The position numbers and the translations under genes were made by a program. From contig JADFQD010000016.1 of NCBI GenBank assembly GCA_022561975.1, forward strand, positions 1 through 40,813: a DNA stretch of 40,813 nucleotides, given 5' to 3'. Every line of letters starts with the position of its first letter. The stretch's first letter is position 1. This document shows, in pieces, positions 23,694 to 35,321 of this stretch. This stretch comes from Acidobacteriota bacterium. GTDB taxonomy: Bacteria; Acidobacteriota; Thermoanaerobaculia; Multivoradales; JAHEKO01. Below the pieces are notes generated by a model, which was not told the origin of the DNA, ran no database searches, and was given only the letters and a program-made list of their open reading frames with translations.

Positions 23694-23872
23694 CCTGCAC
23701 TATTCATGAGGCCGCGAGCAGATTGTGGAAAGCGCCCGTCAGATCAGGCCGCACGCAGTGAGGAGCGAGGAAGCCATACTCACAGTATGTCGAGGAGCGA
23801 AGAACGAGTACGGCCTGAGGTGGCAGGCGATCTCCGCAAGATGCCGTGGCACTCATGAATAATGCAGGCTAG
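23690..23872 (+). mobile_element. 183-bp palindromic MITE-like element (family A), copy 1
   Basis: The ends are 21-bp terminal inverted repeats starting CTAGCCTGCA, with 20 of 21 bases matching. A central hairpin CATACT-CAC-AGTATG lies at 23775-23789. The reverse complement matches 33529-33711 with seven mismatches and no gaps in 183 bp. It has no coding capacity and would depend on a transposase elsewhere. It also supplies the stop codon of the TldE-like gene. Confidence 0.88.
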
Positions 23873-23933
23873 GTTCCCCTCCGGAATGGTTTCCCTTCGT
23901 TCGCTAAGGACTCGAGACCGGAAGCCCGAACTG

Positions 23934-24599
23934 ATGGACCAGCCGGGCCTCGATTCCGGGCTGCATCGCCAAGCGCTGTGCGGCCTCGGCCGGATCAACC
24001 GCGTCTCGGGAACAGCACGGCACTTCTGGCCCGCGCTCGAGCAGCTCTCGAATCGGCTCGGGAGAGGGCCGCTGAGAGTGCTGGACGTAGCGTGCGGCGG
24101 CGGAGGTGTCGCCATCGCGCTCAGCGAAATCGCGAGGCGACGCGGCGTTGCCGTCGAAGTCCGAGGTTGTGACCTCAGCCCAACGGCACTCGGCTATGCG
24201 CGCGAAAGCGCGGATCGGCGCGGTGCCGAGATAGGCTTCTTCGAACATGACGTGCTCGAAAACCGCCTGCCCGAATGCGATGCCATCGTCTGCTCGCTGT
24301 TTCTTCACCATTTGAGCGACTCACAGGCCATGAAGTTCCTGAACGCTCTCCGAAACTCGGCCGGCCGGGTCGTGCAAGTCAGTGACCTCATACGCAGCCC
24401 CCTCGGTTACGCTTTTGCGATGATCGGCTGCCGGCTCCTGACTCGCTCGAAGATTGTCCGCACCGACGGACCGCAATCGGTCGCAGCGGCCTTTACCGTC
24501 AGGGAGGCCGGCACGCTGGTCGAGCAATCGGGTCTCCGGGGTGCTGCGATTCTTCGTCATTTTCCCGAGCGCTTTCACCTGACCTGGAGCCGAAGCTGA
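23934..24599 (+). CDS. Class I SAM-dependent methyltransferase
   Basis: A 221-residue methyltransferase. The SAM-binding motif VLDVACGGGGVAIALSEI is near residue 48, EVRGCDLSPTALGYARE is the acidic motif II region, and CDAIVCSLFLHHLSD is the post-motif. It resembles UbiE-type C/O-methyltransferases. It is the first gene of the polyketide operon and probably methylates the phenolic product, by analogy with SrsB next to the type III synthase of Streptomyces griseus. ATG 23934 has GGAAG ten bases upstream; ATG 23886 is a longer alternative. The palindromic element ends 61 bp upstream, so the promoter must lie close to or inside it. Confidence 0.85.
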   Translation: MDQPGLDSGLHRQALCGLGRINRVSGTARHFWPALEQLSNRLGRGPLRVLDVACGGGGVAIALSEIARRRGVAVEVRGCDLSPTALGYARESADRRGAEIGFFEHDVLENRLPECDAIVCSLFLHHLSDSQAMKFLNALRNSAGRVVQVSDLIRSPLGYAFAMIGCRLLTRSKIVRTDGPQSVAAAFTVREAGTLVEQSGLRGAAILRHFPERFHLTWSRS

Positions 24600-24649
24600 G
24601 CGCGGAAGCCACCCTCGACGCCGCCGAGGCTGCCGGCAGGGAGTGGCCC

Positions 24650-25813
24650 GTGGTGGTAGTCGGAGCCGGACCGGCGGGCGCCTTCGCCGCCTACGAGTTG
24701 GCCCGCGCGGGAGTCGAGTCTCTGTTGATCGATCGCCAGAGGTTTCCTCGGCCCAAGGTCTGCGGCGGCTGCCTCAACGCCCGAACGCTGGCCCTGTTGG
24801 CTGCCGCGGGTCTCGGAGAGCTGCCGGCGTCACTCGGAGGTGAGCCGCTCGATCATTTCGAGCTGTGGACCGGAGGCAGAACCGTCCGGCTACCCATGCC
24901 GCGGGGCATCGCGGTGTCGCGCGCCGCCTTCGACGAAGCCCTGGTGCGCGAAGCGATCGCTGCGGGCGCAGAATTCTTACCCGGTACTCGCGCGGTGCTC
25001 GGCGCAGCCGGATCGAAGACTCGACGGGTCCGACTACCGCAGGCGAAGTGCCAGGTGGTGGCAAGGCTGGTCATCGCAGCCGACGGCCTCGGAGGCAGCT
25101 TCCTGCCCGGCGACTCGGGGCACCGATCTCGTGCGGTCTCCGAGTCCCGAATCGGAGCGGGTGCGGTGTTCGACGACATCCATAGCAGGCACAGCAGGCA
25201 CGGCACCTACCGGCCCGGCGTTATCCACATGGCGGTCGGAAGATCCGGGTACGTTGGTGTCGTACGAGTCGAGGGCGGTCGGCTGAGCGTTGCGGCGGCC
25301 CTCGATCGCAGGGCGCTCGGCGACGGCAGGACCCTGGTTGGAGCGATCACAGAACTCCTGGCGGAGGCAGGGCTGCCGGGGCTTCCGAAACCCGGGACCT
25401 GCGCTTCGCAATGGCAAGGCACGGCCGCCCTCAGCCGGCGTTCCCCGCAAGTAGCTTTCGATCGCGTCTTTCTGATCGGCGACGCCGCCGGCTATGTCGA
25501 ACCGTTCACCGGCGAGGGCATCTCCTGGGCGCTCGAGGCCGCCCGGGAGGTGAGCCCTCTGGTAGCCCGGGCAGCCCTGGCCTCCCTGGCCCCAAATACC
25601 GAGCGCCAGTGGGACGGGTCCCTCGAGCTGGGATGGCGACGACGCTACCGGAAGCGCATTGCTCGACGGCAACGCTGGTGCCGTAGCGTCTCCTGGGCCC
25701 TGCGGCGGCAGATGCTGGTCTCCTCGGCTGTTCGCCTGCTTGGCGGTGCCCCGAGTCTCGCGGCGCCTCTGATGGCCCATCTCAACGCGATGCCCGGAGA
25801 GAGAACCCCATGA
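24650..25813 (+). CDS. FAD-dependent oxidoreductase (geranylgeranyl-reductase-like)
   Basis: A 387-residue flavoprotein. The start GTG 24650 sits six bases after AGGGAG and leads directly into the dinucleotide-binding motif VVVGAGPAGAFAAYELARAG. RFPRPKVCGGCLN is the substrate-side motif seen in geranylgeranyl-reductase-like enzymes. RVFLIGDAAGYVEPFTGEGI is the second FAD motif with the expected GD. It probably hydroxylates, oxidises or reduces the polyketide product; the FAD enzyme SrsC does a comparable job in the Streptomyces phenolic-lipid cluster. It overlaps the next gene by ATGA. A perfect 9-nt duplication at 25184-25201 adds HSRHSR to an exposed stretch. Confidence 0.88.
   Translation: MVVVGAGPAGAFAAYELARAGVESLLIDRQRFPRPKVCGGCLNARTLALLAAAGLGELPASLGGEPLDHFELWTGGRTVRLPMPRGIAVSRAAFDEALVREAIAAGAEFLPGTRAVLGAAGSKTRRVRLPQAKCQVVARLVIAADGLGGSFLPGDSGHRSRAVSESRIGAGAVFDDIHSRHSRHGTYRPGVIHMAVGRSGYVGVVRVEGGRLSVAAALDRRALGDGRTLVGAITELLAEAGLPGLPKPGTCASQWQGTAALSRRSPQVAFDRVFLIGDAAGYVEPFTGEGISWALEAAREVSPLVARAALASLAPNTERQWDGSLELGWRRRYRKRIARRQRWCRSVSWALRRQMLVSSAVRLLGGAPSLAAPLMAHLNAMPGERTP
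25184..25201 (+). repeat. Perfect 9-bp duplication in the flavoprotein gene
   Basis: AGCAGGCAC occurs twice in tandem, in frame, encoding a repeated SRH-type triplet. It belongs to the recurring 9-nt repeat class of this window. Confidence 0.75.
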
Positions 25814-26904
25814 GTCTCGCGATCCTCGGGCTCGGCACCGCCGTCCCGGGTGCTCCGGTCTCGCAACAGCGGGCGGCGCAGGTCGCCGAGCGCCTGTTCC
25901 CGAACACCTCCGAGCGAGCGCGGGTGCTGTCGCTCCTCTACCGCTGGACTCGTGTGGCGTCTCGCCACAGCGTTCTTGCCGACGGGTCGGATGACCAGCC
26001 CGGCAGTTATCAGAACTTCTTCCCCGCCTGGAGCGAAGAAGGCGATGGCGGCCCCACGACCGACCAACGTATGCGCCTCTACGAAGAACACGCGGCGCCT
26101 CTGGCGATCGAAGCCTCTCGCTCGGCCCTCGACGAGGCCGCCATCGAGCCGGGCTCCCTCACCCATGTGGTCACGGTCTCCTGTAGCGGCTTCAGCGCGC
26201 CGGGTGTCGATATCGCGCTGATCAAGCAGCTCGGTCTCGCGTCCGACGTCGCGCGCTCACACATCGGCTTCATGGGTTGCCATGGTGCCCTCAACGGACT
26301 GCGAGTGGCTCGGTCTTTCGTCGAGGCCGACCCGGAAGCCCGTGTGCTGCTGTGCGCCGTCGAGCTGTGCACCCTCCACGCTCACTACGGCTGGGATCCC
26401 GAGCAGATCGTCGCCAACGCCATCTTCTCGGACGGCGCGGCCGCCTTGGTGGGAACCGGAGCCGCCGGCTGCCAGGCCGACACCTGGCAGGTGGTGGCCA
26501 GCGGATCCCAGATCATCGCCGACAGTGAAGAGGCCATGACCTGGCGCGTGCGCGACCACGGATTCGCGATGACGCTGTCGGCGCGCGTGCCGGACCTGAT
26601 CCGCGAACACCTCCGGCCATGGCTGGAAGCCTGGCTGGCCCGCAACAGTCTTTCGATCGCGAGTGTGGGCTCCTGGGCGATTCACCCGGGCGGTCCACGC
26701 ATCCTCGCCGCGGTCGGGAGTGCGGCCGGCCTCGATCCCGATACCCTCGCGCCGTCGTACAAGATCCTCGAGCACTACGGCAACATGTCCTCGCCCACAA
26801 TCTTGTTCCTTTTCGAGACCTTGCGCCGTGCAGGAGCGACGCGCCCGATCGTGGCTCTTGGCTTCGGACCGGGCTTAGCCATCGAGGCGGCTATTATTCG
26901 ATAG
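25810..26904 (+). CDS. Type III polyketide synthase
   Basis: A 364-residue chalcone/stilbene-synthase-type enzyme that condenses an acyl starter with malonyl-CoA units into resorcinol- or pyrone-type rings. The catalytic triad is visible: Cys in HIGFMGCHGALNGLR near residue 157, His in WAIHPGGPRIL, and Asn in ILEHYGNMSSPTILF. The end is GFGPGLAIEAA, typical of the family. It is translationally coupled to the flavoprotein by ATGA. The dedicated ACP, ketosynthase and dehydratase downstream suggest a long-chain, carrier-bound starter, giving an alkylresorcinol- or alkylquinone-like lipid. Starter and ring type are inference. Confidence 0.95.
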   Translation: MSLAILGLGTAVPGAPVSQQRAAQVAERLFPNTSERARVLSLLYRWTRVASRHSVLADGSDDQPGSYQNFFPAWSEEGDGGPTTDQRMRLYEEHAAPLAIEASRSALDEAAIEPGSLTHVVTVSCSGFSAPGVDIALIKQLGLASDVARSHIGFMGCHGALNGLRVARSFVEADPEARVLLCAVELCTLHAHYGWDPEQIVANAIFSDGAAALVGTGAAGCQADTWQVVASGSQIIADSEEAMTWRVRDHGFAMTLSARVPDLIREHLRPWLEAWLARNSLSIASVGSWAIHPGGPRILAAVGSAAGLDPDTLAPSYKILEHYGNMSSPTILFLFETLRRAGATRPIVALGFGPGLAIEAAIIR

Positions 26905-26937
26905 TTGGCGGTAGTAGCCGGTAATAGGCGATAGCCG
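26895..26937 (+). repeat. Degenerate 9-nt tandem repeat at the polyketide synthase stop
   Basis: Drifted 9-nt units resembling TAGCCGGTA and ATAGGCGAT run from the last codons of the synthase gene, across its TAG stop, into the 70-bp spacer before the ACP gene. Confidence 0.5.
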
Positions 26938-26974
26938 GGATAGTTCATTTTTCAGCCGCAGGCCAGAGAGACCC

Positions 26975-27226
26975 ATGGCAGAGACAGCATCGATCAGCGA
27001 GAGAGTCATTCAACGTCTTATCGAGGCGTCCGATCTCGAAGTCGAGCCCGGCGATGTGAGCCCGGCGACTTCGCTGCGCGACGATTTGGAGATCGGCTCG
27101 CTCCAAGCACTCACCCTGATCATGGACCTCGAGGAAGACTTCGAAATAACCGTCGAGGACGACGAGTTCGAGCAGCTCCGGACGGTCGGCGACGTCATCG
27201 GGCTGCTGGAAGCCAAGCAGCAGTGA
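26975..27226 (+). CDS. Acyl carrier protein
   Basis: An 83-residue acidic carrier protein. The phosphopantetheine Ser is in LEIGSLQALTLIMDLEEDF; the usual DSL is replaced by GSL, as in some specialised carriers. Helix I and helix IV boundaries fit the ACP fold. It overlaps the ketosynthase gene by GTGA, so the two are translationally coupled. It is probably the dedicated carrier of the polyketide operon rather than the housekeeping ACP, which usually lies next to fabF or fabG. No phosphopantetheinyl transferase is present here. Confidence 0.9.
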   Translation: MAETASISERVIQRLIEASDLEVEPGDVSPATSLRDDLEIGSLQALTLIMDLEEDFEITVEDDEFEQLRTVGDVIGLLEAKQQ

Positions 27227-28470
27227 AGCGGCGCGTCGTGGTCACCGGAGTCGGGATGATCTCGCCTCTGGGCAACGACTATGCGAGCGTGGCCGCTTCG
27301 CTTCGCCAGGGCCGCAGCGGTGTGCGGGCGATGCCCGAGTGGCGCGAGCATGGCCTCAAGAGCCTGGTTGCCGGAGCTCTGGTCGATATCGAGGGCAAGA
27401 GACAGGCGGCCAGGCTGCCGAAGAAGATCCTGCCCGGAATGTCTGATGGCGCCCTTTTCTGCGCTCTGGCGGCACAGGATGCGGTGGCCGATGCCGGACT
27501 CGGCGACCGCGAGCTTCAGAATTCACGCTGCGCCTGCATCATCGGCAGCGCCGTGGGCAGTGTCGACGCCATTCGCAAGGCCGCCGAGCTTTACTTCTCC
27601 GGCCGAATTCGGCGCATGGATCCCTACACGCTGCTTCGCGGCATGTCGAGTTCGACCAGTGCGACCGTTGCCAACCTCTTTCGGGTCCGAGGACCCAGCT
27701 ATTCCATCAGCTCCGCCTGCGCCACCTCAGCTCACAACATCGGACACGCCGGGGATCTGATCCGCTCCGGAGTGGTGGACCGCGCGATCGCGGGCGGCGG
27801 CGAAGACTTGAGCGAGGTCATTACCGCCTCGTTCCAGTCTTTGCGATTGGCGCTCTCCACGCGCTTCAACGACCGGCCGACGCAAGCCTCTCGGCCCTTC
27901 GACACCCAGCGCGACGGCTTCGTCATCAGCGGTGGAGCCGGCATCGTGATCCTCGAGGAACTCGAAGCGGCGCGAAGCCGCGGCGCCAACATCCGGGGCG
28001 AGCTCGCGGGCTACGCGGCGACCTCGGACGGCCACGACCTGGTGCTGCCGGAGCCCACCGGCGAACAGGCAGCCGCGTGCATCCAACTCGCACTGAGCCG
28101 CAGCGCCCTCGACCCGAGTACGGTCGATTACGTCAATTGCCACGCGACCTCGACGGCCTATGGCGACGCCGCCGAAGCCCGGGCTCTCGAGCAGGTATTC
28201 GGCCCGAAACCGCCACCGTTCTCTTCGACCAAGTCGATGACCGGCCACGGACTGGGAGCCGCCGGCGGGCTCGAATTGATCTACTGTCTCGCGATGATCG
28301 AGCACGGGTTCATCGCTCCGTCGATCAACGTCGAAACCCCCGATCCCGCGGTCGAGGGGCTACCCTTGGTCACCGAGACGCGGGACGCCACTCTCGATAC
28401 CGTGGTTTCCAACAACTTCGGATTCGGTGGAACCAACGCGTCTCTCGTGCTCAGGCGATTCGATGGCTGA
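27223..28470 (+). CDS. Beta-ketoacyl-ACP synthase, FabB/FabF type
   Basis: A 415-residue condensing enzyme that elongates acyl-ACP with malonyl-ACP. The active-site Cys is in YSISSACATSAHNIGHAG, the first His in NCHATSTAYGDAAE and the second in STKSMTGHGLGAAGG; NNFGFGGTNASL closes the fold. The Cys region is closest to FabB. Start GTG 27223 overlaps the ACP stop. The gene overlaps the dehydratase by 8 nt. It probably builds or modifies the acyl starter for the type III synthase, since ketoreductase and enoyl reductase activities would be borrowed from central fatty-acid synthesis. Confidence 0.95.
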   Translation: MKRRVVVTGVGMISPLGNDYASVAASLRQGRSGVRAMPEWREHGLKSLVAGALVDIEGKRQAARLPKKILPGMSDGALFCALAAQDAVADAGLGDRELQNSRCACIIGSAVGSVDAIRKAAELYFSGRIRRMDPYTLLRGMSSSTSATVANLFRVRGPSYSISSACATSAHNIGHAGDLIRSGVVDRAIAGGGEDLSEVITASFQSLRLALSTRFNDRPTQASRPFDTQRDGFVISGGAGIVILEELEAARSRGANIRGELAGYAATSDGHDLVLPEPTGEQAAACIQLALSRSALDPSTVDYVNCHATSTAYGDAAEARALEQVFGPKPPPFSSTKSMTGHGLGAAGGLELIYCLAMIEHGFIAPSINVETPDPAVEGLPLVTETRDATLDTVVSNNFGFGGTNASLVLRRFDG

Positions 28471-28981
28471 CGATAGATCCCGGATCGATGCTCTGCGACA
28501 GGGCGACGGGAGCCTCGACCGTGCCGCGATACGAGAGATTCTGCCCTACGGCGACGACTTCCTGTTTGTCGATCGGGTCGCGCGACTGACCTCCGAGGAA
28601 ATCGAGGCCAGTTTCCTGATCCCCGCGCAATCCTCGTATCTTCGGGCGCACTTCGTCGATCTTCCGGTCATGCCGGGTGTGCTGATCGGCGAGGGGCTCG
28701 CACAGGCGGGCAGTCTGATCGTGCGTTATGGCCTCCCGGCCGGGGAGGAAAAGCACGTCCTAGGGCTGGAAATCGAGCGTGCCAGATTCCCCTCTCCTGC
28801 GCAGCCGGCGGAGACTTTGACCTACCGCGTGCGCTTGGTTACTTCGAGTCGCCGCGTGGCACGCCTAGAGGGTGACGTCCGGGTCGGAGACCGCCGAGTC
28901 TGCCAGGCGCAGCTCGTGGTCGCGATCGTCGACGGCCGGGCGTTTCGCAAGCGACTCGAGGAGCTGCGAAGGGAGGGGTAG
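28463..28981 (+). CDS. FabZ/FabA-like 3-hydroxyacyl-ACP dehydratase
   Basis: A 172-residue hot-dog-fold dehydratase. The FabZ-type signature is LRAHFVDLPVMPGVLIGEGLAQAG, holding the catalytic His and Glu; read as LRAHFVD then PVMPGVLIGEGLAQ. ILPYGDDFLFVDRV is the matching N-terminal strand. ATG 28463 is chosen because it overlaps the ketosynthase stop and removes an unconserved extension. It would dehydrate beta-hydroxyacyl-ACP made after ketosynthase action. It is the last gene of the operon, with a 12-bp gap before the convergent phosphatase stop and no visible terminator. Confidence 0.9.
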   Translation: MADDRSRIDALRQGDGSLDRAAIREILPYGDDFLFVDRVARLTSEEIEASFLIPAQSSYLRAHFVDLPVMPGVLIGEGLAQAGSLIVRYGLPAGEEKHVLGLEIERARFPSPAQPAETLTYRVRLVTSSRRVARLEGDVRVGDRRVCQAQLVVAIVDGRAFRKRLEELRREG

Positions 28982-28992
28982 GGGAAAGGCTG

Positions 28993-30558
28993 CTAGGCCC
29001 GTCGAAGCAGCACCACGGTCTGGTCGTCGCCACGGGCGCCCACGGCCGCGAACTCGGTCATCTGCCTGCGAATAGAATCCGCGGTCTCCGAAAGGGGGCG
29101 ATCTTGGCGCTCCGCTAGCGCATCGGCCAGTCGCTCGATACCGAATTCCTCATCATCCGCTGACAGGCACTCGGTGATGCCGTCGCTGTAGAGGCACAAA
29201 AGGTCGCCGCTCTCGAGCTCTAGTTCCTCGAAGCTGTAGGTCGCGCCTTCGAACAATCCAATCGGTAGGCCCGAGGCTCCCAGCTTTCGAGTCGGCTCTC
29301 CGGCGCGCAGCCAAAGCGACGGATTGTGCCCGGCGCTCAAGTAGCGGCAACAACCGTTCTTGACATCGAGTTCGACGGCGGCGAGCGTGATGAAGGTATT
29401 CGAAGCCGAGGAGGCAAAAATGTGCGTATTGAGAGCCGATAGCAGCCTCTCGCCGCGCAGACCCTGATTCAACAGCAGGTGCAACGCCGAATCCAGACTC
29501 GAAACCAGGAGCGCAGCCGGCATGCCCTTGCCGGTAACGTCGGCGAGCACCAGGAAATAGCCCCCGTCCTCGAGCCGAATATAGTTGAAGTAGTCACCTC
29601 CCACGATCCGCGCCGACCGGCTCCATCCGGTCAGCTCGAAGCCGTGAATCTCGGGAGTCGTCTCCGGCAAAAGCCGCTTCTGAATGTCCGCGGCCAACTC
29701 GCTCTCTCGCTCCAGGCGTTCCTTCTCCAGGGCCTGGCGATGCAGGTACGCGTTCTCGAGAGCGATGGCGGCCTGGTTGGCAAAAAGCTCGAGCGTGCGC
29801 CGATCGGGGGCTCTGAACGGCCCAACGCCCTCCCGGCTCTCCTTGTCGCCGACCACGAGCAGGCCATTGAGCTTGCTCTCAACACCGATCGGCACGGCTA
29901 GAAGGTACTCGCTTCCCGGCAGAACATCGACCTTCGCCGACGGCCGATCGGCCAGCAGACCCTCGAGTTCCCGGGTAGACACCTTGGCCGCGGCTTCGCC
30001 GCCGAAGGTTTGCGCGAGCTCGAACTCTTCACCGCGCCTTCGAAAGAAGGCTCCGCGGCGAGCGTCGAGCAGGGAAACGGCACGCAGCAGAATCTCCTCC
30101 GAAAGCTCTTCCAAATTAAGCGTCGCGGCAATCGCGAGCCCGACGTCGTAGAGCGCCTCGCGCTCGACACCGCGGTAGTTGACTTCGAACTGGCGACGCT
30201 TGACGTCCTCGGACTGCCTGAAGGCTCTGACCGCGATACCGAGCGCCGTCAAACGCGGTTCGTCGAGCCTGGTAGACGCGCCGGCCGGGACGCCCTCGAA
30301 ACTGACCACCCCCCCTCGGACCGGAACCGTCAAGGTCTCTCCCTCGCCGGAAGCGCCGGTCCCCGAGCGCACGATCAACTGGGGAAACGGACCGCCGTTT
30401 TCCTTCAGAAGCAACTTGGCCACGGGCGCTTCCAGCTCGCTGGCCAGGATCCCGAGGAGGTCTCTGAGGACCGCTCGCGCGGCCGTCTTGCCCCGAACGG
30501 TGTCGACCAGATCGGCCCAGGCGTTGGCGCACGAGGCCGTCGAAACCGAGCGCGGCAT
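28993..30558 (-). CDS. GAF-SpoIIE (RsbU-like) serine phosphatase
   Basis: A 521-residue PP2C-type phosphatase. After an N-terminal domain, a GAF domain spans about residues 150-285 (LAIAATLNLEELSEEILLRA to LFANQAAIALENAYL). A coiled linker leads into a SpoIIE domain from about residue 300. Metal motifs are RIVGGDYFNYI, LADVTGKGMPAAL, LCLYSDGITE and GDDQTVVLL. Such proteins dephosphorylate STAS anti-anti-sigma proteins in response to a signal bound by GAF. The STAS and kinase partners are upstream on the same strand, with a 184-bp palindromic element between. It is convergent with the polyketide operon. The regulated sigma factor is not obvious. Confidence 0.93.
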   Translation of the reverse strand: MPRSVSTASCANAWADLVDTVRGKTAARAVLRDLLGILASELEAPVAKLLLKENGGPFPQLIVRSGTGASGEGETLTVPVRGGVVSFEGVPAGASTRLDEPRLTALGIAVRAFRQSEDVKRRQFEVNYRGVEREALYDVGLAIAATLNLEELSEEILLRAVSLLDARRGAFFRRRGEEFELAQTFGGEAAAKVSTRELEGLLADRPSAKVDVLPGSEYLLAVPIGVESKLNGLLVVGDKESREGVGPFRAPDRRTLELFANQAAIALENAYLHRQALEKERLERESELAADIQKRLLPETTPEIHGFELTGWSRSARIVGGDYFNYIRLEDGGYFLVLADVTGKGMPAALLVSSLDSALHLLLNQGLRGERLLSALNTHIFASSASNTFITLAAVELDVKNGCCRYLSAGHNPSLWLRAGEPTRKLGASGLPIGLFEGATYSFEELELESGDLLCLYSDGITECLSADDEEFGIERLADALAERQDRPLSETADSIRRQMTEFAAVGARGDDQTVVLLRRA

Positions 30559-30561
30559 TGC

Positions 30562-30745
30562 CTAGCCTGACCTTCTCACCAGGTTTCGTTGCGAGACGCA
30601 GCAAATGTCTGGAGATACAAGGCTTGCGACCGGGGCTGCCGCAGGCGTACTCGAAGTACGCCGAGGAAGCCGACGGGAGCGTAACGCAGTAGATTCAGGC
30701 ATTTGCGGCGTCACAGTAGAAGGCTGGTGCGAAGGCCAGGCTTAG
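30562..30745. mobile_element. 184-bp palindromic MITE-like element (family B)
   Basis: Ends are CTAGCCTGACCTTCTCACC and, reverse-complemented, CTAAGCCTGGCCTTCGCACC. It shares the CTAGCCTG terminus and almost the length of the family A elements. A central hairpin GGCGTACT-CGA-AGTACGCC lies at 30644-30662, followed by CGAGGA just as in family A. It fills the spacer between the STAS and phosphatase genes and contains the STAS stop codon. Confidence 0.8.
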
Positions 30746-31092
30746 CCCGTCATGCCCGCAACGCCGCTGGCTTCGTCGTCATAGATGTCGGCGTACTGAG
30801 CGAGTCCCATAATGTGAAACGTCTTTGCGATGGTCTTGGTCAAGCAGCAGAAACCGAGCTTGCCCTCGATCTCGAGGATCCGCTCGATGATCTCGATGAG
30901 GATCGAGATTCCGATCGAGTTCACGATTTTCGTGCCCTCGAGGTTGAGAAGGAGCTTCTTCTCGCCCCCGTCGAGGACCCGGTAAGCGACCTTGGCAATC
31001 TCCTCGCCGCCCTGATTGTTGATGTAGCCCTCCGTGTAAATCACCGAGAGTCCGCCGCGTTTCTTGAGGGTCACTTTCAAAGTTTCTGTCAT
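30742..31092 (-). CDS. STAS-domain anti-anti-sigma factor
   Basis: A 116-residue STAS protein. The core NLEGTKIVNSIGISILIEI carries the Ser that a partner kinase would phosphorylate (SIGIS). The rest follows the SpoIIAA/RsbV fold, with a short acidic C-terminus. ATG 31092 overlaps the stop of the kinase gene in ATGA. Unphosphorylated, it would bind the kinase and free its sigma factor or other client. The stop codon TAA is within the terminal inverted repeat of the family B element, suggesting that the insertion trimmed or replaced the original 3' end. Confidence 0.9.
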   Translation of the reverse strand: MTETLKVTLKKRGGLSVIYTEGYINNQGGEEIAKVAYRVLDGGEKKLLLNLEGTKIVNSIGISILIEIIERILEIEGKLGFCCLTKTIAKTFHIMGLAQYADIYDDEASGVAGMTG

Positions 31093-31541
31093 TTTCCTCT
31101 CCCGGCCCGGCGGTACTTCACCATGGTGATAGTAGTACCTTCGGCATCGGACTCGATATCGACTTCGTCCATCAGTCCGCGAATAATCTTCAGGCCCCAG
31201 CCTCGCTTGCGCTCGGCTTTGAGCTTTTCCTCGATCTTGGGCTCCTCGACCTCGGAGGTCTTGAAACCTCTACCGTTGTCGCGGACGGTGATCTCCAGTT
31301 TCTCGTGCTGCTCGTCGCCGGTGATGGCGAAGGTCAGATACACGCGGCTGTCCTCGGCGTGACTGTGCTCGAACGAATTGATACAAGCTTCCACCACAGC
31401 CATTCGAACCTCGTCGGTCTGGTCCGCGCCCAGGCCCATGTGCTCGGCCATCGCGGTCGCCGTCTTGCTGGCGGTTATTTCCATGTCCGCCACCATCGGC
31501 AGCGTCAGTGTGACCTCCCTCAGCAGGGCGTGGTTAGCCAT
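31089..31541 (-). CDS. RsbW-like anti-sigma kinase (HATPase_c_2)
   Basis: A 150-residue ATP-binding protein of the SpoIIAB/RsbW group. The N box is MAVVEACINSFEHSHA, the G1 box VRDNGRGFK and the G2 box KRGWGLKIIRGLMDEV. It would phosphorylate the STAS partner and sequester a sigma factor or another client. Start ATG 31541 is clear. It is the first gene of the partner-switching operon, with STAS coupled by a 4-nt overlap. The nearest upstream gene on this strand is the 52-residue membrane protein 50 bp away. Confidence 0.92.
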   Translation of the reverse strand: MANHALLREVTLTLPMVADMEITASKTATAMAEHMGLGADQTDEVRMAVVEACINSFEHSHAEDSRVYLTFAITGDEQHEKLEITVRDNGRGFKTSEVEEPKIEEKLKAERKRGWGLKIIRGLMDEVDIESDAEGTTITMVKYRRAGRGK

Positions 31542-31591: not shown

Positions 31592-31750
31592 CTAGAACGC
31601 CAAATAGAGTTCGAGCAGGTAGATGCCGAAGGGCTGGACAAAATCGTTGGCCATGAGCCACACGAAGGTGACCAAGATTCCAAACGAAATCGCCGCGTCT
31701 GTCGAAAATGGCGAGACAGCCGGCACGGCTTTGCGAAACGCTTCGAGCAT
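31592..31750 (-). CDS. 52-residue membrane protein under a sigma-54-type promoter
   Basis: A short gene starting at ATG 31750 with a near-perfect ribosome-binding site (AGGAGGT) 5 bases upstream. The product has a short basic/hydrophilic head, then two hydrophobic stretches, AAISFGILVTFVWLMAN and FGIYLLELYLAF, so it is probably a small inner-membrane protein. Family not recognised. A sigma-54 -24/-12 promoter lies 30 bp upstream of the start, and the neighbouring upstream gene encodes a sigma-54 activator, so it is likely the activator's local target. It could be a small regulator, a stress peptide or a subunit of a membrane complex. Confidence 0.7.
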   Translation of the reverse strand: MLEAFRKAVPAVSPFSTDAAISFGILVTFVWLMANDFVQPFGIYLLELYLAF

Positions 31751-31779
31751 ACGAACCTCCTTGGAACGCGACACACTAC

Positions 31780-31796
31780 AGCAACGGCCCTGCCAA
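31780..31796 (-). promoter_or_regulatory. Sigma-54 (-24/-12) promoter
   Basis: On the minus strand the sequence is TTGGCAGGGCCGTTGCT. It matches the sigma-54 consensus TGGCAC-N5-TTGCW except for G instead of C at the sixth base, with exact spacing between the GG and GC elements. The start site would be near 31768, about 18 nt before the small membrane protein's ATG 31750. Confidence 0.7.
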
Positions 31797-31894
31797 GACC
31801 GTCAGATTGGTCGCGTGCCTTCCCTAAGACGCTCAGAATCAACACTTAGGAGGTTGACTCGACTGGTAGCGCTCGGAGAACTCTGAACTGATGC

Positions 31895-32008
31895 GCGGCA
31901 TTACGCCGCATACTCCCCACGATTCACCCGGAGCCCCGGTTGATAAAGCCCCATTCTGACGTTTAAAAACCCCATTACGCAATACTGTCGCATACGCGGC
32001 ATTTTGAC
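31895..32008. promoter_or_regulatory. Four repeated motifs, putative enhancer sites
   Basis: Four related sites with a CATT core: GCGGCATTACGCCGC (31895-31909, itself an inverted repeat), CCCCATTCTGAC (31949-31960), CCCCATTACGC (31970-31980) and GCGGCATTTTGAC (31996-32008). They lie about 100-215 bp upstream of the sigma-54 promoter, the usual place for activator binding. The 216 bp of 31797-32012 hold no gene. Confidence 0.55.
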
Positions 32009-32012
32009 GCGC

Positions 32013-33506
32013 CTAAAATCCCTTCCGTTGCAAGGTCCGGCGATCGATTCCCAGAATCCTGGCGGCGCTCGACTTATTGCCCCCCGTGAGCTTCAGCACC
32101 TTGCCGATGTGCTGGCGCTCGACGGCCCCGAGTTCGAGGGCCTGAGGGCCCGAGCCAGCTGTTCCGCCTAGAAGCGGACGGACTACCTCGGCGCCGACTT
32201 CTTCGTCGGCGAGCGAGACCGCAGCCTCCATCATGTTCTGCAGCTCACGAACGTTACCCGGGAAGTCGTAAGCCAGCAGTAACGCCAGCGCGTCTGGGTG
32301 CACTCGAAGCACCGGAATACCCTCACGCCGGCAAAAGTTCTCGACGACGTGGCGCACCAGGTGCGGAATGTCTTCCCGGCGTTCCCGCAACGGCGGGAGG
32401 TGGATCTCGACACCCTTGAGGCGGTAGTAGAGATCCTCTCGGAAGGTGCCGTCGCGGACCAATTGCTCCAGGTCTCGATGGGTCGCAGCGACCAAACGGA
32501 CGTCGGTGGGGATCGGAGCGCGCGCGCCAATTCGGACGACTTCGCGCTCCTGCAGAGCCCGCAGGAGCTTGACCTGGACTTCCGGGCGAATGTCGCCGAT
32601 CTCGTCCAGGAATAGCGTCCCCTCATGTGCCAGCTCGAACTTCCCGAGCCGAGCGCTGACGCCGGTTGCAACCCCCTCTTCGATACCGAACAGCTCGCTC
32701 TCGAGCAAGGTTTCGGGGACCGCTGCGCAGTCGACCACAACCATCGGGCCGGATCGCCCCGAGCGCAGGTGGAGCAACTTGGCGACCAGCTCTTTTCCGG
32801 TTCCGCTCTCACCCCGAATGACCACACTGACGCCGCGAGGAGCGACCCGCTCGGCCATCTCCAAGGCTCGGCGCATGGCGGGAGCTTTGGCGATAATTCG
32901 ACGATCCTCCAGGTCGGCGGTGAACAACTCCTTGAGCACTCGGTTCTCTTCCTCGAGGCGGTCTTTCTGGACCCGCAGGCTCTCGAACTGACGAGCCCCG
33001 TCGAGAGCAACACCCGCTAGCGCCGAGACCGCCTCGAGAAAGCGCCGATCCCCGGCCGGGAAGCCCGAGCCGGCGACGTCCTCACCGGGTCCACCTCGGG
33101 TTTCCTTGTCCAGCAGCGCGAGATAGCCGAGAAACACCCCGCGATAGACAATCGGAGTCGCGACCATGGCCTCGAAGGGGCGCCCGACGAACTCGCCCGC
33201 GCTCAGAGCGATGGTCTGGCCGCTGGCCAGGATCTCGTTCCAGACGGGCTCGGAAAACAGAGAACCGGCGTCGGGAGGGCCTCCGGTCCACCCAACGCCG
33301 GAGATTGCCCGGGGATCGCCATAGGCGTCCCGTGTGACGACGACAGCCGCGGCCGGATCGAGCACCGCGCAAACGCGCTCGAGCACCTCGTCCACCAGCT
33401 CCTGCTCCGGCCGGTGAGCATGGAGAGCCACCGCGAGATCGTTCAGAGTCTCGAGCTGAAGAATTCGCCTCTTCTCGGCGAGGCCGGAGCTCGGCTGCCG
33501 CTTCAT
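32013..33506 (-). CDS. Sigma-54-dependent activator (GAF-AAA+-Fis), aberrant GAFTGA loop
   Basis: A 497-residue enhancer-binding protein. A GAF-type sensory domain covers roughly residues 15-180. The AAA+ domain has Walker A GESGTGKE, Walker B LFLDEIGD, sensor/arginine region FREDLYYRLKGVEIHLPPLR and YDFPGNVRELQNMMEAA. A Fis-type helix-turn-helix ends the protein (GNKSSAARILGIDRRTLQRKG). Unusually, the sigma-54-contacting loop normally reading GAFTGA is GVATGV (in FGIEEGVATGVSARLGKF). This variant occurs in some activators, but could weaken or alter contact with sigma-54. The downstream small gene with a -24/-12 promoter is the likely target. ATG 33506 is the clear start. Confidence 0.93.
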   Translation of the reverse strand: MKRQPSSGLAEKRRILQLETLNDLAVALHAHRPEQELVDEVLERVCAVLDPAAAVVVTRDAYGDPRAISGVGWTGGPPDAGSLFSEPVWNEILASGQTIALSAGEFVGRPFEAMVATPIVYRGVFLGYLALLDKETRGGPGEDVAGSGFPAGDRRFLEAVSALAGVALDGARQFESLRVQKDRLEEENRVLKELFTADLEDRRIIAKAPAMRRALEMAERVAPRGVSVVIRGESGTGKELVAKLLHLRSGRSGPMVVVDCAAVPETLLESELFGIEEGVATGVSARLGKFELAHEGTLFLDEIGDIRPEVQVKLLRALQEREVVRIGARAPIPTDVRLVAATHRDLEQLVRDGTFREDLYYRLKGVEIHLPPLRERREDIPHLVRHVVENFCRREGIPVLRVHPDALALLLAYDFPGNVRELQNMMEAAVSLADEEVGAEVVRPLLGGTAGSGPQALELGAVERQHIGKVLKLTGGNKSSAARILGIDRRTLQRKGF

Positions 33507-34733: not shown

Positions 34734-35321
34734 ATGACACAGGAGTCGCAGCAAACTTCGGATGCCGAAGTCGTTGCGGCGGTCTTGAGAGGCGACAAGG
34801 AGTTATTCGGTGAGATCGTCAAGCGTTACCAGGGCAGGTTGGTCAACTTTCTGTACCGGCTTCTCTATGATCAGGCCGAGGCGCACGATCTGGCCCAGGA
34901 GGTCTTTTTCAAGACTTTCCAAGCTCTCGACCGCTATGATCCGCAGTACAAGTTTTCGACTTGGCTCTTCCGGGTCGGACAGAACGCTGCGATCGACCGA
35001 TTGCGCAAGCGCCGGCTCAAGCTGGTCTCACTCGACCGACCCTCGAGAGACCAGGACTCCGACTCGGCTTGGGAGTTCCCGACCCCTGAGCGGGGGCCCT
35101 ACGGCGAATTGCGTAACCGGGAGCGCGGAGACGCGATCTCGGAAGCCATCAGATCTTTACCATGGGAGTACCGGGAGTTGATCGTCATGCGACACTACGG
35201 CGAGTTGTCCTACGCAGAGATCGCGGAGGTCAAGAAGTTGCCTCTCGGAACTGTCAAGAACAAGCTGTTTAGAGCCCGGCAGATTCTCAAGGAAAGCCTG
35301 GCGGACTTCATGGCGGACTAG
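34734..35321 (+). CDS. ECF (RpoE-type) RNA polymerase sigma factor
   Basis: A 195-residue group IV sigma factor. Region 2 covers about residues 25-95 (LFGEIVKRYQGRLVNFLYRL to KFSTWLFRVGQNAAIDRLRK), with the -10-recognition and core-binding parts intact. Region 4 is at about 130-185 (LPWEYRELIVMRHYGELSYA, then LPLGTVKNKLFRARQIL). Start ATG 34734 has AGGAGG 13 bases upstream, a long spacing. The gene is followed 25 bp later by its probable zinc-finger anti-sigma factor, the standard arrangement for ECF regulation across the membrane. Confidence 0.95.
   Translation: MTQESQQTSDAEVVAAVLRGDKELFGEIVKRYQGRLVNFLYRLLYDQAEAHDLAQEVFFKTFQALDRYDPQYKFSTWLFRVGQNAAIDRLRKRRLKLVSLDRPSRDQDSDSAWEFPTPERGPYGELRNRERGDAISEAIRSLPWEYRELIVMRHYGELSYAEIAEVKKLPLGTVKNKLFRARQILKESLADFMAD

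Follow-up and report, generated by a model that had tools for sequence, protein, structure and literature searches.

The window analysed here, 40,813 nucleotides in full, is contig C26 (JADFQD010000016.1) of a 3.66-Mb metagenome-assembled genome (MAG) of an Acidobacteriota bacterium (GCA_022561975.1). On its minus strand, a gene for an enhancer-binding protein is followed by an intergenic region with a -24/-12 promoter, a gene for a 52-residue protein and the genes of a partner switch (Table 1). Pfam matches bore out the view of an earlier note that a GAF-bearing activator adjoins a partner-switching operon, with the series GAF, AAA+ and HTH_8 in the activator and HATPase_c_2, STAS and GAF-SpoIIE in the operon. 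The relatives used for comparison are bacterial MAGs, almost all labelled Acidobacteria(ota) or Thermoanaerobaculia and a few with other or no labels; they were drawn as two overlapping sets of loci with identical MAGs in both, and counts from the two sets are therefore kept separate and not summed.

Table 1. Features of the activator-switch locus, in window coordinates
Feature	Position	Strand	Remarks
GAF - AAA+ (Sigma54_activat) - HTH_8 enhancer-binding protein	32013..33506	minus	Pfam PF01590, PF00158, PF02954
Predicted activator site III, CGCGTCAAAATGCCGCG	31995..32011	minus	centre 208 bp upstream of -24 element; leave-one-out PWM 17.1 bits; distance conserved
Predicted activator site II, TGCGACAGTATTGCGTA	31976..31992	minus	centre 189 bp upstream of -24 element; leave-one-out PWM 8.5 bits; position conserved in relatives
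Predicted activator site I, TGCGGCGTAATGCCGCG	31894..31910	minus	centre 107 bp upstream of -24 element; leave-one-out PWM 15.4 bits; distance conserved
Predicted sigma-54 promoter TTGGCA-N6-TTGCT	31780..31796	minus	TTGGCAGGGCCGTTGCT, exact match, read 31796-31780
Shine-Dalgarno AAGGAGGT	31755..31762	minus	direct reading
52-aa predicted membrane protein gene	31592..31750	minus	helices predicted 3-7, 14-34, 38-51; C-terminal ...YLLELYLAF
RsbW/SpoIIAB-like kinase (HATPase_c_2)	31089..31541	minus	PF13581; N-box E51/N55 and DxGxG conserved
STAS antagonist	30742..31092	minus	PF01740; NSIG Ser59 invariant in alignment; 4-bp overlap with kinase ORF
GAF - SpoIIE (PP2C) phosphatase	28993..30558	minus	PF07228, PF13492; metal-ligand Asp conserved

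The exactly spaced -24/-12 promoter proposed in the earlier note held when the locus was read in relatives. An element of the form TGGC-N7-(T)TGC lies between activator and kinase in 41/41 loci of the window's order (the window and 40 others, those within one genus being non-independent), and its TGGC and TGC columns are invariant. The small gene is as well marked as the same note had claimed: it reads directly from an ATG at 31750, behind its Shine-Dalgarno sequence, to a stop at 31592, and in nearly all loci of the order a small ORF with a Shine-Dalgarno sequence starts 40-67 bp past the start of the element, so that promoter and gene are kept together across the order. By the -24/-12 convention, the transcript would begin near 31769, ~19 nt 5' of the ATG. 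The genome encodes RpoN in one copy, which looks canonical. Because the activator does not carry the canonical GAFTGA Phe (see below), it is from the conservation of the promoter that we infer its sigma-54 dependence. At a pN/pS of 0.12-0.46, synonymous changes per site predominate in the small ORF, which identifies the latter as a real protein gene under purifying selection. Motifs this short can arise at random (1.5% of shuffled inter-regions contain TGGC-N7-TTGC), and promoter-like and palindromic sequences could in principle be fortuitous and the small ORF non-coding; yet a promoter kept at every locus of the order, sites at fixed distances and the constraint on the ORF leave this explanation a negligible probability.

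Upstream of the promoter, the four CATT-core motifs described earlier resolved differently, into three 17-bp palindromes with the consensus YGSGRCAwwwTGYCSCR, site III ending 2 bp before the activator stop codon. All three lie within the ~80-250 bp range typical of upstream activator sites, as predicted from sequence. As the distances shift by a few bp among loci, which blurs averaging in a fixed register, they were evaluated by binned counting and with a leave-one-out PWM (14.4 bits). For the three palindromes the median leave-one-out scores came to 18.2, 16.2 and 15.6 bits; control windows taken from within these regions had medians of ~-6 to 0, and in 83% of loci each of the three exceeded 5 bits. 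The search windows for the PWM were picked after the palindrome positions had been seen; a motif-free count of palindromes, which is independent of that choice, gave an excess at 98-109 and 188-211 bp. Across the 59 genomes scanned, most exact tandem pairs (a second site at a distance of 19 bp) belong to this promoter, which makes the circuit look local and dedicated, and one-mismatch pairs elsewhere are sporadic, with some produced by the reversed-pattern control too. The window's own genome has no tandem match because site II is degenerate and weak in the window itself. Single-site matches there number 55, against 46 for the reversed-pattern control, and a regulon of single weak sites is possible. 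One perfect extra site (L266) was rejected as a regulon member: it adjoins mobile-element-like genes and has no sigma-54 promoter.

In the activator, Walker A and Walker B are intact and the sigma-54 contact loop reads GVATGV instead of GAFTGA. This loop is invariant in the 35 orthologues of the order and in every sister orthologue whose loop was read; the loop Thr/Gly and the ATPase motifs are invariant too. The loop coding pattern is found in nearly all genomes of the class, and outside it in only 9 of roughly 350 genomes scanned; among seven such non-class GVATGV loci that we checked, 2/7 have TGGC-N7-TTGC somewhere and 0/7 have the present layout. The remaining activators read in the window's genome are canonical, with G[AS]FTGA or GAYTGA, apart from one with a second Phe-less loop, GAATGV (G000:C155:44925-45407; L291). 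The activator falls below the curated NCBIfam cut-offs for NorR (284.9 vs 476) and NifA (318.9 vs 528.85).

A sigma-54 dependence of this activator is hard to square with what mutants of other activators have shown. In PspF, loss of the Phe abolishes activation and only Tyr may replace it (Zhang et al. 2009, cited in PMC2941729), and a genome survey treats changes at this position as mostly abolishing activity (PMC3162934). Some activators without GAFTGA work with sigma-70 (PMC10274813), and several canonical activators are encoded in the genome, so that the GVATGV protein might be unable to work with sigma-54, binding the palindromes as a repressor or as an architectural or sigma-70-type regulator while another, GAFTGA-bearing activator opens the promoter. 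We consider this improbable: the NtrC cases (PMC10274813) have loop deletions, and here the loop Thr/Gly and the ATPase motifs are unchanged; the three sites stand at enhancer distances in regions whose control windows give no comparable motif signal; and the GVATGV loop and the promoter are conserved together across the class. The simplest reading would be that this lineage activates sigma-54 through a modified loop, the alternative being binding at the sites without activation.

Homologues of the small protein were found in 52/59 related genomes at a permissive threshold (E<=1), at which the weakest matches are unreliable alone, and they include Ca. Multivorans thiocomprendens (L131), which makes Ca. 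Multivoradales, in the class Thermoanaerobaculia, the most likely order of the window. In a scan of the phylum all 16 matches fell within the window's order, where orthologues indeed sit beside such activators, and the protein had no match in Pfam, NCBIfam or PHROGs. Its hydrophobicity suggests a membrane location, and an AlphaFold2 model (pLDDT 72) has helices at 14-34 and 38-51 that form a hairpin of moderate confidence. The kinase ORF starts at 31541, 50 bp past the small ORF, as the earlier note had reported, and its suggestion that both genes are read from one promoter now appears probable: the interval contains no convincing promoter or terminator, and one weak terminator-like match inside the small ORF is at about the chance rate. 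The small gene is therefore most likely the first gene of the partner-switch operon, and would be co-transcribed with the switch genes. The earlier picture of a small membrane effector beside that operon is right in placing the gene at the promoter, and has to be revised in that the gene is not simply separate. In L041 a second, partial kinase-like ORF (2021-2287) lies between the small gene and the kinase.

The switch itself is a complete RsbW/SpoIIAB-type set, with a HATPase_c_2 kinase, a STAS protein with its phospho-Ser and a PP2C phosphatase; because the kinase residues, STAS Ser59 and the phosphatase residues are intact, a normal phosphorylation switch is to be expected. The module contains no gene for a sigma factor or for any other target of the kinase; an ECF gene at 34734, with a zf-HC2 partner, is on the opposite strand. 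The gap between the STAS and phosphatase genes is occupied by a ~180-bp MITE-like element (30561-30742) with inverted-repeat ends AGCCTGGCCTTC...GAAGGTCAGGCT. It has 54 matching pieces in its own genome and is missing from both congeners, L032 and L033, in which a few bp separate the STAS and phosphatase genes; it may affect expression of the phosphatase.

What the small protein does in this setting can be proposed from its place. Its constant first position suggests membership in the switch, and it may be a membrane-bound partner of the co-expressed kinase, as an anchor or as an input or output, rather than an unrelated effector; we offer this tentatively, at somewhat less than even odds. An equally tentative alternative is that the ORF encodes a stand-alone envelope protein, such as a stress effector or a toxin-like small membrane peptide, whose only link to the switch genes is the common promoter. 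The predicted membrane hairpin would suit such a protein, and so would its faster evolution, at ~65% identity between congeners vs 86-88% for kinase and STAS; on the other side, the genomes scanned hold no significant match to the small protein away from the module, and most sister loci have a hydrophobic small ORF in the corresponding place.

Beyond the order, the module order is conserved in sister families as well, and, of the class genomes listed, a single one lacked the switch by the STAS profile, which also gave lower-scoring matches elsewhere in the phylum. Among the members of the class that belong to other orders or families the activator is ~45% identical, and promoter and hydrophobic small ORF are kept in most loci read, L210 being a locus without a promoter match. 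The PWM derived from the order detects the sites more weakly there, site I exceeding 6 bits in 51%. The small ORFs of sister families have ~48-93 codons, usually with a hydrophobic L-x-F/L tail, and comparison of small-protein profiles between families gave no significant match; position and general character thus appear to be conserved in a sequence that is not alignable. No convincing small ORF was identified in L207 and L208. Kinase-STAS-phosphatase trios outside the class lacked the adjacent activator and the promoter, and in front of them no small ORF was convincing.

The surroundings of the module vary. In L034, L037, L046, L049, L065 and L071 the activator gene is immediately preceded by a codirectional uvrA, and a PmbA/TldD-like gene, as read from sequences and not by family search, lies downstream in several relatives; the window's own flanking genes differ from this arrangement. 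An extra PP2C-like gene stands upstream of the activator in the class members L207, L210, L211, L212 and L230. On the plus strand of the window, positions 23862-28981 hold genes read from their translations as a methyltransferase, an FAD oxidoreductase, a type III PKS-like protein, an ACP, a KAS and a FabZ-like protein, a cluster that the two congeners share as well.

Altogether, the gene order, the promoter, the sites at their fixed distances, the constraint on the small ORF and the preserved catalytic residues, all read in the DNA itself, point to a dedicated sigma-54 circuit that would comprise the activator, its three sites, the promoter, and the small membrane protein with the switch operon, a reading to which we assign a probability of roughly 0.82. 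A signal would reach the GAF domain of the activator, which would bind the three palindromes that lie between the activator gene and the operon; through the DNA looping usual for such activators, it would then come into contact with RNA polymerase-sigma-54 on the -24/-12 promoter, and the resulting open complex would allow transcription of the operon from ~31769. Translation would yield first the small membrane hairpin protein, then the RsbW-like kinase, the STAS antagonist and the GAF-SpoIIE phosphatase. The complete local circuit envisaged in the earlier note thereby gains strong support from its conservation across the class and from tandem sites that are nearly unique, with two amendments, namely that its activator carries no GAFTGA Phe and that the small protein is likely the head of the operon. 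More speculatively, and with doubts of our own, a class-wide family of enhancer-binding proteins may activate sigma-54 through the Phe-less GVATGV loop and so drive a switch in which the fast-evolving membrane protein of the first gene is the kinase's missing partner.

Searches of the open literature turned up no account of this arrangement. It would constitute an unannotated regulatory module present almost throughout the class Thermoanaerobaculia, with an enhancer both compact and testable, and its small gene illustrates that a protein may lie concealed at a conserved position once it has diverged beyond the reach of profile searches. With the RsbW-RsbV-RsbU and SpoIIAB-SpoIIAA-SpoIIE systems of Bacillus the module shares a kinase, a STAS antagonist with a conserved Ser and a PP2C phosphatase with a sensor domain; unlike these, it has no sigma factor in the operon, a small membrane protein gene at its head and transcription that apparently depends on sigma-54 and a dedicated activator. 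A sigma-54 activator, SypG, is also linked to partner-switch proteins, SypA and SypE, in the Syp system of Vibrio fischeri; both proteins and layout are different there, and we know of no equivalent small membrane gene in it. Activators of the NorR/NifA type are likewise built as GAF-AAA+-HTH_8 proteins, have several palindromic sites ahead of a -24/-12 promoter and are encoded next to their target, but the protein described here differs in its Phe-less loop and in scoring below their curated cut-offs. A non-canonical L1 loop is shared with the GAFTGA-defective proteins TyrR, HupR, the NtrC of R. capsulatus and Caulobacter, and VpsR (PMC3162934, PMC10274813). Those proteins carry substitutions or deletions and act, where known, at sigma-70 promoters, whereas here the loop Thr and Gly are kept and the sigma-54 promoter is invariant. 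Conserved together with an ideal sigma-54 promoter, the Phe-less activator offers a natural variant for testing the role of the GAFTGA Phe.
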